Source: Alloiococcus otitis ATCC 51267 (GTDB taxonomy: Bacteria > Bacillota > Bacilli > Lactobacillales > Carnobacteriaceae_A). From it: a stretch of DNA of 64,000 nt. The notes under the pieces were generated by a model. The model saw only the letters and a program-made list of their open reading frames with translations. It was not told the DNA's origin and made no database searches. Below, piece by piece: positions 13,836 to 25,170 of this stretch. Location: NCBI RefSeq assembly GCF_000315445.1, contig NZ_JH992957.1:293047-357046 (forward strand), written 5' to 3'. Position 1 is the first letter of the stretch; every line of letters begins with the position of its first letter. Made by a program: the position numbers and the translations under genes.

Positions 13836-16800
13836 TTGAACCAGCAAGGGAAGTCTTTCGTTCCCAATTACTTAGCAGGTATCCAAGAACTTTCAATAAA
13901 GAACAAAACAATTGATATTAAGTATAAAAATGCTTACCGAGGCAGAATTCAAGTTTGGACTCCCACTATATTTCGTCTTCAAGTGGAAAAAGAAGGGCAT
14001 GATTTTGCCGACCGGCCAGAGCCTTCGCAAGCAGATAAGCCGGCCCATATTTTGATAAAGGATTTCACTGATACAGAGGATTTTGAAGTCAAACTAAAAG
14101 AAAGCGATCAAGACTATCAAGTACTGACCTCAGCCTATACCGCTTCCTTAGACAAGAACCAGGGGACCCTGAAAGTCTATCAAAAGGGGGCAAGCCGACC
14201 AATTATTGAAGAGCTTCACCCCCTTAGCTTGAGCCCACAAGGGACGAGCCAGACCTTGAAAGCTAATGAAGACTCATATTACTTTGGTGGAGGGATCCAA
14301 AATGGTCGTTTTTCTCACAAGGGTCAGACGATTAAGATTGTCAATGAAAATAACTGGGTAGACGGTGGGGTCGCTTCCCCCAATCCATTTTACTGGACTA
14401 CGGACGGCTACGGTGTCCTCCGCCATACCTTTAAACCTGGCCATTATGATTTTGCCAGTAGTGACCAAAATCAGGTGGTAGCTAGCCACCAGGAAGATCG
14501 TTTTGATGCCTTTTATATCATGGGAGAAAGGCCACAAGATATTTTAAAAGGCTACTTTGACCTGACAGGGGCTCCGATTGTCCTGCCGGCTTATTCCCTT
14601 TATGAAGGTCACTTAAATGCTTACAACCGGGACTTTTGGGTTGAAGTTGCCCCAAACCATCCAGACGGGATTTATTTTGCTGAAGTAGACAAGTGGTATA
14701 GGGAAGTCCACCCAGACCAAGTGAGCCAGGTCAAGGGTAAAGTTAAAATCAAGGAAAGCTTGTCGGGGCAGCCAAAAGATAAAAACTATCCTTTTACCGC
14801 GTCTGCCTTAGTCAACCGCTACCGTCGCCATGATATGCCACTGGGTTGGATCTTAGTCAATGACGGCTATGGGGCAGGTTATGGCCAAGAAGACAGCCTG
14901 GAAGGGAATATCAAAAACTTAGAAGAATTTACCAAAGAGGCGGAAGGCAAGGGGATTGTGACGGGTCTGTGGACGGAATCTGAACTGACACCAGATGAGA
15001 GTCTGACTGCCTTATTACAAAGGGATTTGGTCAAGGAGGTAAACCAGGCCTCTGTCCGTATTCTGAAGACGGATGTTGCCTGGGTAGGTCCTGGCTACTC
15101 TTTTGGCCTCCACGGAACCCAGGAAGCAGGGGACATGATGGAGCGGGCCTCAGGCGGGAGCCGGCGTTTTATAATCAGTCTGGACGGCTGGGCAGGGTCT
15201 CAGCGGAATGCTGGGTTTTGGACGGGAGACCAAAACGGTGGGGAGTGGGAGTATATCCGCTTTCATATTCCCACCTACATTGGTACTGGACTTTCCGGCA
15301 ACCCCAACATCTGCTCTGACATGGACGGTATTTTTGGTGGAGGCAATCCCATTATCAACATCCGGGATTACCAGTGGAAGACCTTTACCGGGATGCAACT
15401 CAATATGGACGGTTGGGGAGCAAACCCAAAAGGCCCCTTTGTCTTTGACCAGACGACTTCTGATTTAAACCGGACCTATCTCAAGCTCAAGTCTCAGTTA
15501 ATCCCCTATGCTTACACTTTGATGCACCAAGCCCTTGAGGGAGACCCGATCGTACGGGCCATGTTTATCGATTTTCCCAAGGAGGAAGTAAATTATAGCC
15601 AGGCCGTTAACTACCAATTTATGTTTGGAGATAACTTTCTAGTGGCACCGGTCTACGAGGATGTCAAGATGGACCAGGAAGGCAACGATGTCCGCAACCA
15701 TATCTACTTACCTGAGGGAGAGAAGTGGATCGACTACTTTACCGGTCAAGTGTATGATGGAGGCTATTTCTTGCATAACTTTGAAGCCCCTATTTGGAAA
15801 TTGCCCCTTTTTGTCCGGGCAGGAGCTATTATCCCCATGGCCAAGCCAAGTAATAATATGAAAGAATTTGACCCAAGTTACCGAATTTTTGAAATCTATC
15901 CCTTTGGTCAAACTAGTTTTTGCTTAATTGAAGATGATGGTTACTCCACTGACTACCAAGCAGGCCAAGTTGCTAAAACAGACCTAACTTGCTGGGAAAA
16001 AGAAGGCCAGGTCACGGTTGAACTAGGCCCTTGCCAGGGAAGCTTCCAGGGCCAGGTAGAAAAGAAAGTTAACCAATTTAACCTGAATGTGACCGAACGT
16101 CCAAATGTACTTCAACTAAGCATTGATGGGGTACAGCAAGACTTGCTTGAAGTGTCTAGTCTAGAGGACTTTGAAAAAGCTAGTTTTGCTTTCTATTATG
16201 ACCCTTGCCCAAACCTAAACCATTATTCCAGCCAAGACGGGGACTTTTATGGGGAAAAATGGATCAAAAACCCGGTCCTCCGGATTAAAACAGGCCCTCT
16301 TTCCATCCGGTCTAGGGTCAAACTACAGGTAAATGGCTTTGTCTATGACTATCCAGCATCAGCAATAGACCAAGTAGATGAAGTAAGCGGAATCGGACCT
16401 GACCTAGCCTTGGCAGAAGATGGAGTCAAGACGAACTCCCTTACCCTGACTTGGGAAGATCAAGCTGGGGCTTTACGTTATGACTTGTTAGTAGACGACC
16501 AGGTCCACCTGAATATTCAAGAGCCGATTTTTATCCAAGCAAACCTACAAGCCGAAACTTCCTATAGCTTCCGAGTTCGAGCTGTTTTTAAGGACCACAT
16601 GACAGACTGGTCCAATCCCAAAACGCTTACAACGGCCGAAGATGACTTTTCTTGGACTGTATCCGTTCAAGAAATTAAAGGTGACTTTAAGGGCAAGGTC
16701 AACCAGCCACTTGTATCCTTAGTTGACGGCAAGCCTGGAACTTACTTTTTAGAGCCATTAGACCAAGAGGACCTTCCGGGACAGATCCAACTAGACTTGG

Positions 16801-17714
16801 GCCGGGTTTACACTATTGACCGCTTAGCCTACCAAGGACCAAGGCATGGGGGGTTAAGAGGAGTAATTCGCCAATTTGACCTGGCTTATTCGATCGATGG
16901 AGTCAACTGGCACACATTGGAAGATAGGATTAGCTTAGAAGAGACTTCGGCATTACAAGTCATCGAACTTGACCAGGCAGTCCAGGCTAATTTCCTAGCC
17001 TTAAAGGTCCTTGAAACAAGTGACAATGAATTTATTGCAGGCAGTGGCCTATATGTTTTTCAAGTCCCACATACGAAAGCCTTACTAGCTGGAGACGTAA
17101 CTGGCGACGGTAGGGTGGACGACAGTGACATCCGGTCCTTTAAAAATTATGCTGGTTTAAGACGGGGCGACAGTGACTTTGAAGGCTACATTGAAGTAGC
17201 TGACTTAAACCACAATGGCTACATTGATGCCTACGATGTTTACCTGGCGAGCGGGCAGATTAATAAAGGATCTGGCCAAAACTCCGGTCAAATTCAAGAC
17301 CTAGCAGGTAAACTCCGATTATCCAGCGACAAGGATCAAGTTTCGTCTGGTGAGACCTTTACCCTTTCCCTAAAAGGGAAAGACTTAAAAGGCGTCCATG
17401 CCGTAAACGGCCGCCTTCCCTTAAGTTCCAACCAAGTCACACCGCTTGCTAGCATGGAGACGAATACCAACTTTAGGGATACGGAAAACTTCTCTCGGAT
17501 TAGACAACACAAGAGTGGTGACCAAGTGGCCTACCTGATCCTAGCCAATTACAAGGACAGCCCTGGCCTTCAGGGAAACCACTTCCTTGCTAGCTTATGT
17601 CTCCAAGCCCAAGCAGACCTTGACCTAGACAAGCTTATAGCGAGACTAGATGGAACTGACTTTTTCCTAGTGGGCAAAGACAAGAAGGTTAAGCAAGGTT
17701 TGACCCGACCTTAG
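13836..17714 (+). CDS. Modular GH31 glycoside hydrolase with FN3, F5/8C, dockerin and cohesin-like modules
   Basis: A 1292-residue alpha-glycosidase-type protein. In order: N-terminal beta domain (about 1-230); GH31 barrel with candidate nucleophile Asp413 (KTDVAWVG) and acid/base Asp465 (FWTGDQNGGEW); C-terminal beta domains (to about 830); FN3 (about 850-930); discoidin/F5-8C module (about 935-1075); dockerin-like pair of calcium loops (DVTGDGRVDDSD at 1087, DLNHNGYIDAYD at 1123); cohesin-like C-terminus (about 1150-1290). Such modules are usual in secreted host-glycan hydrolases; an alpha-GalNAc or alpha-Gal substrate is possible but unproven. No signal peptide or LPXTG anchor is visible. 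The only start available after an in-frame TGA at 13767 is TTG at 13836, about 20 bases from GAGGAG, so the N-terminus may be lost or misread. Confidence 0.82.
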   Translation: MNQQGKSFVPNYLAGIQELSIKNKTIDIKYKNAYRGRIQVWTPTIFRLQVEKEGHDFADRPEPSQADKPAHILIKDFTDTEDFEVKLKESDQDYQVLTSAYTASLDKNQGTLKVYQKGASRPIIEELHPLSLSPQGTSQTLKANEDSYYFGGGIQNGRFSHKGQTIKIVNENNWVDGGVASPNPFYWTTDGYGVLRHTFKPGHYDFASSDQNQVVASHQEDRFDAFYIMGERPQDILKGYFDLTGAPIVLPAYSLYEGHLNAYNRDFWVEVAPNHPDGIYFAEVDKWYREVHPDQVSQVKGKVKIKESLSGQPKDKNYPFTASALVNRYRRHDMPLGWILVNDGYGAGYGQEDSLEGNIKNLEEFTKEAEGKGIVTGLWTESELTPDESLTALLQRDLVKEVNQASVRILKTDVAWVGPGYSFGLHGTQEAGDMMERASGGSRRFIISLDGWAGSQRNAGFWTGDQNGGEWEYIRFHIPTYIGTGLSGNPNICSDMDGIFGGGNPIINIRDYQWKTFTGMQLNMDGWGANPKGPFVFDQTTSDLNRTYLKLKSQLIPYAYTLMHQALEGDPIVRAMFIDFPKEEVNYSQAVNYQFMFGDNFLVAPVYEDVKMDQEGNDVRNHIYLPEGEKWIDYFTGQVYDGGYFLHNFEAPIWKLPLFVRAGAIIPMAKPSNNMKEFDPSYRIFEIYPFGQTSFCLIEDDGYSTDYQAGQVAKTDLTCWEKEGQVTVELGPCQGSFQGQVEKKVNQFNLNVTERPNVLQLSIDGVQQDLLEVSSLEDFEKASFAFYYDPCPNLNHYSSQDGDFYGEKWIKNPVLRIKTGPLSIRSRVKLQVNGFVYDYPASAIDQVDEVSGIGPDLALAEDGVKTNSLTLTWEDQAGALRYDLLVDDQVHLNIQEPIFIQANLQAETSYSFRVRAVFKDHMTDWSNPKTLTTAEDDFSWTVSVQEIKGDFKGKVNQPLVSLVDGKPGTYFLEPLDQEDLPGQIQLDLGRVYTIDRLAYQGPRHGGLRGVIRQFDLAYSIDGVNWHTLEDRISLEETSALQVIELDQAVQANFLALKVLETSDNEFIAGSGLYVFQVPHTKALLAGDVTGDGRVDDSDIRSFKNYAGLRRGDSDFEGYIEVADLNHNGYIDAYDVYLASGQINKGSGQNSGQIQDLAGKLRLSSDKDQVSSGETFTLSLKGKDLKGVHAVNGRLPLSSNQVTPLASMETNTNFRDTENFSRIRQHKSGDQVAYLILANYKDSPGLQGNHFLASLCLQAQADLDLDKLIARLDGTDFFLVGKDKKVKQGLTRP

Positions 17715-22234: not shown

Positions 22235-22840
22235 ATGGATCCAAATCATATCCAAAAAGCAGACATCTTAATCTCAGCGGTCAGCCAAGACCAATACCCA
22301 GACCAAGGCCTCCCAGAAGTGGCTTTGGCTGGTCGGTCCAATGTTGGCAAGTCATCTTTTATCAATAGTATGGTCAACCGGAAAAAACTGGCCCATACTT
22401 CCAGCAAGCCGGGAAAGACTCGGACTCTTAACTTCTACCAGGTTGAAAATGAGCTCTTGCTGGTGGATGTGCCGGGATATGGCTTTGCTAAGGTATCCAA
22501 GGCTGAGCAAAACCGCTGGGCAGCTATGATGGAAGAGTACTTTGCCAGCCGGGAAAGTTTGGTCTTGGTCATCCAGTTAGTTGACTTTCGGCATAAGCCT
22601 AGCCAACTAGACATCCAAATGTACGAATACCTGAGTCATTTTAACCTGCCTGTTTTGGTGGTAGCGACCAAGGCTGATAAGGTCAAGCCTTCCAAACGAG
22701 ACAAGCAAATACAAGATATCACCCAAGCCTTGAACCTTTATGATGGTGACCAGTTTATGGTCTATTCGGCCGAAAGCAAGGAAGGCAGGGACCAGGCTTG
22801 GCAAATTATTCGGGAATTTTTAAGGGATGACCAACTATGA
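22235..22840 (+). CDS. engB: Ribosome biogenesis GTP-binding protein EngB (YsxC)
   Basis: GTPase for 50S subunit assembly. In 201 residues it has P-loop GRSNVGKSSFINSM (about 32), the switch segment KPGKTRTLNFYQV, DVPGYGFAKV (G3) and ATKADK (G4). The ATG follows AATGAGG. Its TGA overlaps the ATG of the next gene by four bases. In Bacillus the corresponding neighbourhood is clpX, lon genes, ysxC, then hemA; here the Lon genes are missing and the HemA-like gene follows directly. Confidence 0.95.
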   Translation: MDPNHIQKADILISAVSQDQYPDQGLPEVALAGRSNVGKSSFINSMVNRKKLAHTSSKPGKTRTLNFYQVENELLLVDVPGYGFAKVSKAEQNRWAAMMEEYFASRESLVLVIQLVDFRHKPSQLDIQMYEYLSHFNLPVLVVATKADKVKPSKRDKQIQDITQALNLYDGDQFMVYSAESKEGRDQAWQIIREFLRDDQL

Positions 22841-23844
22841 AACTTTTAATGTATGGCATCGATACAACACTGTTAGACTCGGATGCCCAAAGCTTTTTCT
22901 TAACCAGCTTTCAAAACCAAGAAGGACTGGTCAAACAAATCAAGTCTTTCCAAGGTGTCTTAGAAGTCTACCTGCTCAATATTAGTCAAGAATTTGAGAT
23001 TTACCTCTTTATTGATGAAACCAGCTTTAGCCATGGGGACTTGCTACGCTACCTGGCCCAAGAGAGCCAGTTGGACTTAAATGACCTTATCAACTTCTCC
23101 TATTCCCTTTACAATGAAGAGGCCATTAATCATTTGTTTAAAAAGAGTTATGACTTTAGTTTGCTCTTGCCTAGCCAATACTTCCAGGACATGATCGAGT
23201 CTAGTTTGTCGACCAGACGTTTATTTCATTTGGGACCCCACTTTAAAAAGCTCTTCCGTAGTCTCTATAATTTTATGTTTGAAGACTCTGAAGAAGCCTT
23301 GAGTTCTTATAATATCGTCAGCCAGCTTTTATTTATCATGAAGTCTTGCCAGTATATCAATGCAAAAGAAAGTGACTTGGTTATCTTGGGGGCTAATATT
23401 GAGAGCTTGTACATTTCTTACCGCTTGAAAAAATACGGAATAAAGTCGATTACCCTGGCGGCTGCTAATGACTTTGAATTTGACCAGATGCAAGCCTACC
23501 TGGCTGATTTAAATCCAGGCCTTTTTGAATTGGACCCCCATTTCCATTTAAAAGTCATTAAGCTGGATGAGATGAACTACCGGTATGGGGCAGCGGACAT
23601 TTTCGTGAACTTATTGGTTGGTTTTTCCGACATGCGTCAAGCCTTATTAGAAAGAATCAGACAGGTCCGCCTAACCCCAAAAGCTGTGGTTTATGCATCT
23701 TTTTACGCTGAAGAAAACACACCATTTATTGAATATAAATTGACCTTGACCATCATTTCCAAAGACCACTATTTAAGTGAGGAAATGCAAAAGGCCATCC
23801 GACTGGCAGCAGAAAAAACCTACCAACAATTACTAGGAACTTAA
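22837..23844 (+). CDS. Degenerate glutamyl-tRNA reductase-like (HemA-like) protein, catalytic Cys replaced by Ser
   Basis: A 335-residue protein of unknown function that I align by eye with glutamyl-tRNA reductase. The N-terminus MKLLMYGIDTT, the core ISQEFEIYLFID, and YNEEAINHLFKKSYDF match HemA blocks in order and spacing. The catalytic motif STCNRTE is replaced by NISQEFE, with Ser50 where the thioester-forming Cys should be. The NADPH loop GAGxMG reads GANIES (185-190), and the HemA C-terminal dimerisation domain (about 100 residues) is absent. It overlaps engB by four bases, where hemA stands in Bacillus. Enzyme activity is therefore not expected; a retained binding or structural role coupled to EngB is inference. 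The frame is intact over 335 codons, arguing against simple decay. Confidence 0.68.
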   Translation: MKLLMYGIDTTLLDSDAQSFFLTSFQNQEGLVKQIKSFQGVLEVYLLNISQEFEIYLFIDETSFSHGDLLRYLAQESQLDLNDLINFSYSLYNEEAINHLFKKSYDFSLLLPSQYFQDMIESSLSTRRLFHLGPHFKKLFRSLYNFMFEDSEEALSSYNIVSQLLFIMKSCQYINAKESDLVILGANIESLYISYRLKKYGIKSITLAAANDFEFDQMQAYLADLNPGLFELDPHFHLKVIKLDEMNYRYGAADIFVNLLVGFSDMRQALLERIRQVRLTPKAVVYASFYAEENTPFIEYKLTLTIISKDHYLSEEMQKAIRLAAEKTYQQLLGT

Positions 23845-23862: not shown

Positions 23863-25170
23863 ATGTCTATGTTTGTCGACTACACCAAAGTTAACCTGAG
23901 AGCCGGTAAGGGCGGTGACGGAATGGTGGCTTTTAGACGAGAAAAGTATGAGCCCAATGGTGGACCAGCAGGCGGCGACGGTGGCAGTGGTGGTAACATC
24001 ATCTTCAAGGTAGATGAAGGCCTCCGTACCCTGGTAGACTTCCGCTACAACCCCCATTTCAAGGCAGATAGTGGCCAAAATGGTATGCCTAAAGGAATGA
24101 ATGGCAAGAAGGCAGAGGACTTAATTATCAGTGTCCCGCCTGGAACCATCATCCGGGATGCCCAAAGTAAGGCCGTACTTGCTGATTTACAAGGAGAAGG
24201 GCAAGAAGTCTTGGCAGCCCAAGGTGGCCGGGGAGGTCGAGGCAATAAACGTTTTGCTACGCATAAGAACCCAGCTCCTTCCATTGCCGAAAACGGCGAG
24301 CCGGGCCAAGAGCGGGATGTCGAATTGGAATTAAAAGTCATGGCCGATGTTGGCCTAGTGGGTTATCCTTCTGTCGGGAAATCGACCCTTTTGTCGGTTG
24401 TCTCAGGCGCTAAACCTAAAATTGGAGCCTATCACTTTACTACACTTGCCCCTAATTTAGGTGTAGTGAATGCAGTGGACGGCAAGGAATTTGTCTTGGC
24501 GGATATTCCTGGCTTAATTGAAGGGGCTTCAGAAGGGGTTGGTTTGGGGATTGACTTCCTCAAGCATATTGAAAGAACCCGACTCCTCCTCCATGTCCTT
24601 GATATGAGTGGAATGGAAGGCCGCCAGCCAATTGATGATTTTGACCAGATTAACCAAGAACTAAAAGACTACAATGAGAAATTATTGGACCGCAAACAAG
24701 TCATCGTGGCCAATAAAATGGACCTGCCCCAGTCAGCGGACAATTTAGCCGAGTTTAAAGCTGAATTGGCCAGCCGGGGTCTCGACTATGAAATCTTTGA
24801 AGTGTCTGCTGCCACCCAGGCTGGCATTCAGGACCTCGTTGTCCGTCTGGCTGACTTAGTCGACCAACTGGACAAAGTCCCAAGTTTAGACCAGGAAGAA
24901 GCTGGTGCAGACGAGCAAAGAGTGGTCTACAAGTTCCAGGCAGACCAAGAAAGCTTTGACCTTGACCGGGACCCAGAAGGGGTTTGGCTAGTTTCTGGTC
25001 CCAAGGTCGAGCGTTTGTATGCCATGACCAATTTTGATCATGAGGAAGCCATTATGCGGTTTTCCCGCCAGCTAAGAGGGATGGGGGTTGACCAAGCCTT
25101 AAGGGACAAAGGCGCTCAGTCTGGTGACCCTGTCCAGGTTGAAGATTTTGTCTTTGAGTTCATGGATTAG
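23863..25170 (+). CDS. obgE: Obg family GTPase
   Basis: Essential ribosome-assembly and stress-linked GTPase. The 435 residues comprise the glycine-rich Obg fold (1-160, with [20 protein letters not shown]), the G domain with P-loop [12 protein letters not shown] (about 166-177), DIPGLIEGA and NKMDLP, and a C-terminal OCT domain (about 350-430). AAAGGAGGA precedes the ATG at 23863; a second ATG at 23869 would also be compatible. It follows the HemA-like gene by 18 bases and probably belongs to the engB transcript. Confidence 0.97.

Follow-up and report, generated by a model that had tools for sequence, protein, structure and literature searches.

The closest described system to the protein considered here is glutamyl-tRNA reductase (GluTR; HemA or GtrR; PF05201, TIGR01035), which is represented by the structures 1GPJ, 4N7R, 5CHE and 5YJL and in which the roles of the thioester Cys, of NADPH and of the dimerization domain have been described (PMC6399207, PMC7242693, PMC3778395). 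Pseudoenzymes in general, which share with the protein described below an enzyme fold that is selectively retained without its catalytic motifs, have been reviewed (PMC10211241), and we found no description in the open-access literature of a GluTR pseudoenzyme or of an orphan hemA–hemL pair in Carnobacteriaceae. We consider it probable that, in the family to which Alloiococcus otitis belongs, a hemA orthologue has been turned into a non-catalytic binding pseudoenzyme that is under purifying selection. The A. otitis protein resembles GluTR in its catalytic and Rossmann folds (with an alignment across most of both), in the position of its gene after engB and in the shared residues E54 and H99; it differs in having no thioester Cys, GLDS..GExQ pocket, GxGxM loop or dimerization domain, in falling far under the cut-off of the hemA model and in the absence of the downstream pathway.

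The window (the whole stretch of 64,000 nucleotides of A. otitis ATCC 51267 that was analyzed) carries the gene for this 335-residue protein at 22837–23844 on the forward strand, within the order tig, clpX, engB, HemA-like gene, obgE, rnz, SDR gene and recJ, in which the identities of engB, clpX and obgE were confirmed by curated models. The genes on either side encode ribosome-assembly GTPases, engB (ysxC) at 22235–22840 (forward strand; TIGR03598, 229.8 bits, cut-off 124) and obgE at 23863–25170 (forward strand; NF008955, 616.9 bits). The sequence ATGA at 22837–22840 holds both the engB stop and the start of the HemA-like gene in a four-base overlap, and a ribosome-binding-site-like AAGGG, read from the sequence within engB (22822–22826, forward strand), lies 10 bases upstream of the ATG. 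The frame is the only one of the six with coding-like codon usage, the other five containing 17–34 stops, and it stayed open in none of 2,000 shuffles. Elsewhere in the window, positions 13836–17714 appear by eye to encode an alpha-glucosidase-like (GH31-like) protein of ~1290 amino acids with C-terminal dockerin-like repeats (DVTGDGRVDDSD...DLNHNGYIDAYD), which is unusual in a lactic-acid-type bacterium.

Searched alone, the window protein matches NF000744 (E = 1.4e-8) and, narrowly missing the Pfam cut-off, PF05201 (E = 1.5e-5), in both cases over residues 26–102, and it reaches 30.3 bits with the curated hemA model TIGR01035 against a cut-off of 209.55. A typical relative scores ~79 bits with the same model (cut-off 210), and the one HemA scored from a sister family within the order reaches 311 bits. 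A phmmer search of the PDB with the single protein returned no match; a profile built from 17 family members, all 17 of which match the GlutR_N model, retrieved 1GPJ (E = 1.6e-15, with homology extending to residue 327 of the 1GPJ chain) and Arabidopsis GluTR 4N7R (E = 6.5e-13), and nothing else at a significant level. Structural comparison points the same way. The AlphaFold model of the window protein (pLDDT 73.5, pTM 0.65) has GluTR chains as its seven best Foldseek matches in the PDB (E = 4.6e-13 to 3e-9), and the higher-confidence model of a typical relative (pLDDT 85, pTM 0.81) likewise has GluTRs as its seven best (E = 6e-18 to 7e-15), with the next match at 1e-4. For both models whole-chain TM-scores against GluTRs are only 0.34–0.46 with high rmsd, which we read as a differing orientation of the predicted domains. 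A second PF05201 match in the same genome (L002, E = 3e-4) was dismissed as chance, as it runs across stops in a region of phage-like genes.

Conservation is best over what remains of the GluTR catalytic domain (about residues 1–155; 22837–23301, forward strand), where the GlutR_N match lies and where dN in close pairs of relatives is lower than elsewhere in the protein. The thioester Cys was traced in a gap-free alignment against 15 canonical HemAs (nine from the sister family and six others) and 30 further HemAs sampled from Bacilli: it is present in 15/15 and 30/30, respectively, and codon 50 of the window gene (22984–22986, forward strand) encodes Ser at this position. Across the 25 family members the same position is occupied by Asp (11), Glu (10), Ser (2), Cys (1) or Asn (1), and since 21 of the 24 orthologues of the window protein carry Asp or Glu, Ser50 is atypical for the family; nowhere in the family alignment is a Cys conserved. 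The Arg two residues further on, invariant in the 30 Bacilli HemAs and present in 22/24 relatives, is Glu52 in the window protein and is also missing from G019 and G020. The GLDS..GExQ motif is lost family-wide. The NADPH-binding Rossmann domain that follows survives as a remnant (about residues 159–310; 23311–23766, forward strand), recognized by predicted alternating strands and helices and by the family-profile homology to 1GPJ, and has a degenerate glycine loop that reads GANIE (23389–23403, forward strand) where canonical HemA has GxGxM, and the second Gly is lost in the relatives too. The dimerization domain is wholly absent across the family; in the window protein, model and alignment equate the C-terminal helix (23779–23838, forward strand) with the first part of the GluTR spinal helix, and the chain stops there. 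A first-pass annotation made from the sequence alone had proposed an intact 335-codon frame overlapping engB by four bases and encoding a GluTR relative with Ser in place of the thioester Cys, a lost NADPH glycine loop and no dimerization domain; the frame statistics, the alignment, the family profile and the Foldseek matches bear out each of these points.

Four residues common to canonical HemA (E54, Y56, D60 and H99) are conserved in 25/25 family members, as are E61, F64, H66, G67, L70, Y72, I85 and S90. The most invariant patch, FxHG[DE]xL (residues 64–70), lies in the window protein within FSHGDLLRY (residues 64–72; 23026–23052, forward strand) and is a signature of the lineage in the alignment: it occurs in all 25 family members and in 9/9 sister-family HemAs and in none of the 30 sampled Bacilli HemAs. 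Its presence in the canonical HemAs of the sister family indicates that the patch dates from a time when the enzyme was intact, and the conservation of this motif suggests that HemA may have acquired a second role before the enzyme was lost, or the patch might instead be a structural adjustment.

An orthologue was found in 25 of the 27 genomes of the family, that of A. otitis included, and in all 25 assembled loci the gene lies intact between engB and obg. The end of engB could be located in 24 of these, and in 21 the two reading frames overlap, by four bases in 20 and by one base in the other. Neither of the two genomes that lack the orthologue (G002 and G014) has an engB match, so the locus is probably unassembled there. 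In the tree the 25 proteins form a single clade (100/100) whose nearest neighbors are the sister-family HemAs that retain STCNRTE; together with the shared engB-linked locus, this identifies the family proteins as hemA orthologues whose catalytic features were lost within the family. One member, G013 (L006), still has Cys at the catalytic position (SECQRLEYY), and its glycine loop and dimerization domain are gone; the base of the clade is not resolved by the tree, with which both Cys retention and reversion in G013 are compatible, and an AU test did not reject a single Cys loss with G013 branching first (p = 0.29). The longest branch (3.3 substitutions per site) belongs to the window copy, whose closest relative is 26% identical and whose placement beside G019 is a long-branch join that we do not trust.

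The sister family gives the direction of change. Matches of ~240–255 bits were found in 12 of its genomes, and the nine of these proteins that were aligned have STCNRTE and the dimerization domain. These enzymes (G042, G063, G077, G117, G131, G145 and others) resemble the window protein in their FxHG[DE]xL patch and in their linkage to engB and are its nearest canonical relatives; they differ from it in their length of ~460–500 amino acids, their catalytic Cys and dimerization domain, the hemL gene that follows and their model score (311 bits for the one scored against 30). Most sister-family loci whose flanks were read have the order engB–hemA–hemL, which indicates that the change ran from canonical HemA to the non-catalytic form. 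A Listeria-like genome (G101) has engB–hemA–hemC–hemD–hemB at the same place, with hemB, hemC and hemD confirmed. In two further sister-family genomes (G035 and G049) the hemA–hemL pair is missing after engB and the order is clpX–engB–MazG-like gene, and the pair can thus be cleanly removed. In other families of the order, HemA-like matches lie in open frames of ~750 amino acids (G331:C9, G335:C1 and G263:C8), possibly fusions of HemA with another enzyme.

Family models detected neither HemB nor HemL in any of the 27 family genomes, including that of A. otitis, nor HemC, HemD or ferrochelatase in the subset of them that was tested. In the 12 sister-family genomes HemA and HemL occur with no match to HemB (PF00490), HemC and HemD are present in G117 only and ferrochelatase in G042 and G056 only; since hemA–hemL there persists without hemB, HemA on the simplest reading lost its connection to heme as an intact enzyme, before catalysis was lost. 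The proposal of the first-pass annotation that a heme enzyme was repurposed after the loss of heme synthesis is thus upheld in its descent from HemA and in the absence of detectable heme genes, including hemB and hemL in the A. otitis genome, and refined in that the loss was stepwise. As separate observations, the same 12 genomes (G042, G056, G063, G077, G084, G091, G104, G117, G124, G131, G138 and G145) have a second HemL-like gene beside their hemA/hemL repertoire (e.g. L059–L063) and apparently make 5-aminolevulinate without a known use. In G117, HemC and HemD are encoded beside a tetrapyrrole methylase, a nitrite reductase and a CbiX-like gene (L084; G117:C5:290000-307000), which suggests siroheme synthesis, and the presence of HemC and HemD without HemB could be explained by a missed gene or by a porphobilinogen synthase not homologous to HemB; the neighboring 341-residue gene, considered as a missed hemB, is an aldo/keto reductase.

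One alternative, which we regard as very unlikely, is that the gene is a remnant on its way to loss, retained merely by its position between engB and obg in the operon. Several lineages do evolve fast, with branches of 1.4–3.3 substitutions per site, and hemA–hemL is dispensable in the sister-family genomes G035 and G049. That clean removal, possible in a related operon, is nowhere seen in this family, whose 25 loci are intact and free of stops. In six close pairs of relatives dN/dS for the HemA-like gene is 0.079–0.114 (approximate, as several dS values exceed 1), which is not the signature of a decaying pseudogene; in domain I it falls to 0.044–0.058 in four of the six pairs, and for comparison engB gives 0.025–0.037 in five pairs and 0.119 in the other. 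Some 20 columns are invariant across 17 diverse members, and the window protein, despite its 3.3-substitution branch, retains 35 of the 50 near-invariant family columns and no stop; judged by its intact frame and conserved columns alone, the window copy does not fit neutral drift. The earlier suggestion of selection rather than decay therefore stands, with no interrupted homologue among the 25 loci.

The main rival for the relatives is an enzyme with changed chemistry, in which the acidic residue 50, together with R52, E54 and H99, could serve as an esterase that hydrolyzes glutamyl-tRNA or could turn over some other aminoacyl or glutamyl substrate. The literature mentions an esterase activity of GluTR (PMC4726326), and the frequent Asp/Glu50 (21/24), the retained R52 (22/24) and the invariant E54 and H99 (25/25) are in keeping with the idea; we nonetheless think it unlikely, as a shared mechanism would need to work with S, D, E, N or C at one position, the GLDS..GExQ pocket is lost family-wide, the window protein with Ser50 and Glu52 fits poorly, and R52 is also missing from G019 and G020. 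Least probable of all, and in our estimation hardly credible, is a cryptic GluTR in which another nucleophile would still support the making of 5-aminolevulinate: the scaffold is retained and R52, E54 and H99 are mostly kept, but HemL, HemB, the NADPH GxG loop and any conserved Cys are all absent.

We therefore return to the non-catalytic binding protein. Judged by its sequence, it would be catalytically incompetent, and we infer the lack of activity, the binding function and the identity of its partner. No glutamate-1-semialdehyde would be made, with the Cys, the GLDS..GExQ pocket, the NADPH loop, the dimerization domain and the HemL and HemB users all absent, and purifying selection maintains the compact catalytic domain with its Rossmann-like scaffold, which is translated together with engB. 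A face of domain I (E54, Y56, D60, F64, H66, G67, L70, Y72 and H99), inherited from a tRNA-handling domain, may dock an RNA or protein partner, and the protein would then act as an accessory factor linked to translation or ribosome assembly. Our leading guess, from the tRNA ancestry of the domain and the place of its gene between those of two ribosome-assembly GTPases, is a role linked to tRNA or the ribosome. The engB–hemA order is ancestral, being found also in the Listeria-like genome, and was in place before catalysis was lost; taken alone it argues weakly for a partnership with EngB, and adjacency to obg is by itself a weak pointer to function.

The engB-linked descendant of HemA probably has a new, non-enzymatic job. 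We offer, as a speculative possibility, a scenario in which HemA first gained a role outside tetrapyrrole synthesis (marked by FxHG[DE]xL and by sister-family HemA and HemL without HemB) and later, having shed catalysis, turned into a dedicated factor, translated together with EngB and encoded upstream of ObgE, that would link charged tRNA-Glu or ribosome assembly to growth. If true, a new translation-associated protein family would have been born from a heme enzyme. The sister family poses a second puzzle, the purpose of 5-aminolevulinate in genomes without hemB, and annotation calls for caution, as weak similarity may lead such proteins to be named glutamyl-tRNA reductase and wrongly imply heme synthesis. 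GluTR sits where protein synthesis and tetrapyrrole synthesis meet, and an apparently inactive form that is selectively maintained across a whole family, with its canonical counterpart surviving in a sister family and a clear signature of the lineage, would provide a clean case for roles of a tRNA-dependent enzyme beyond its reaction.
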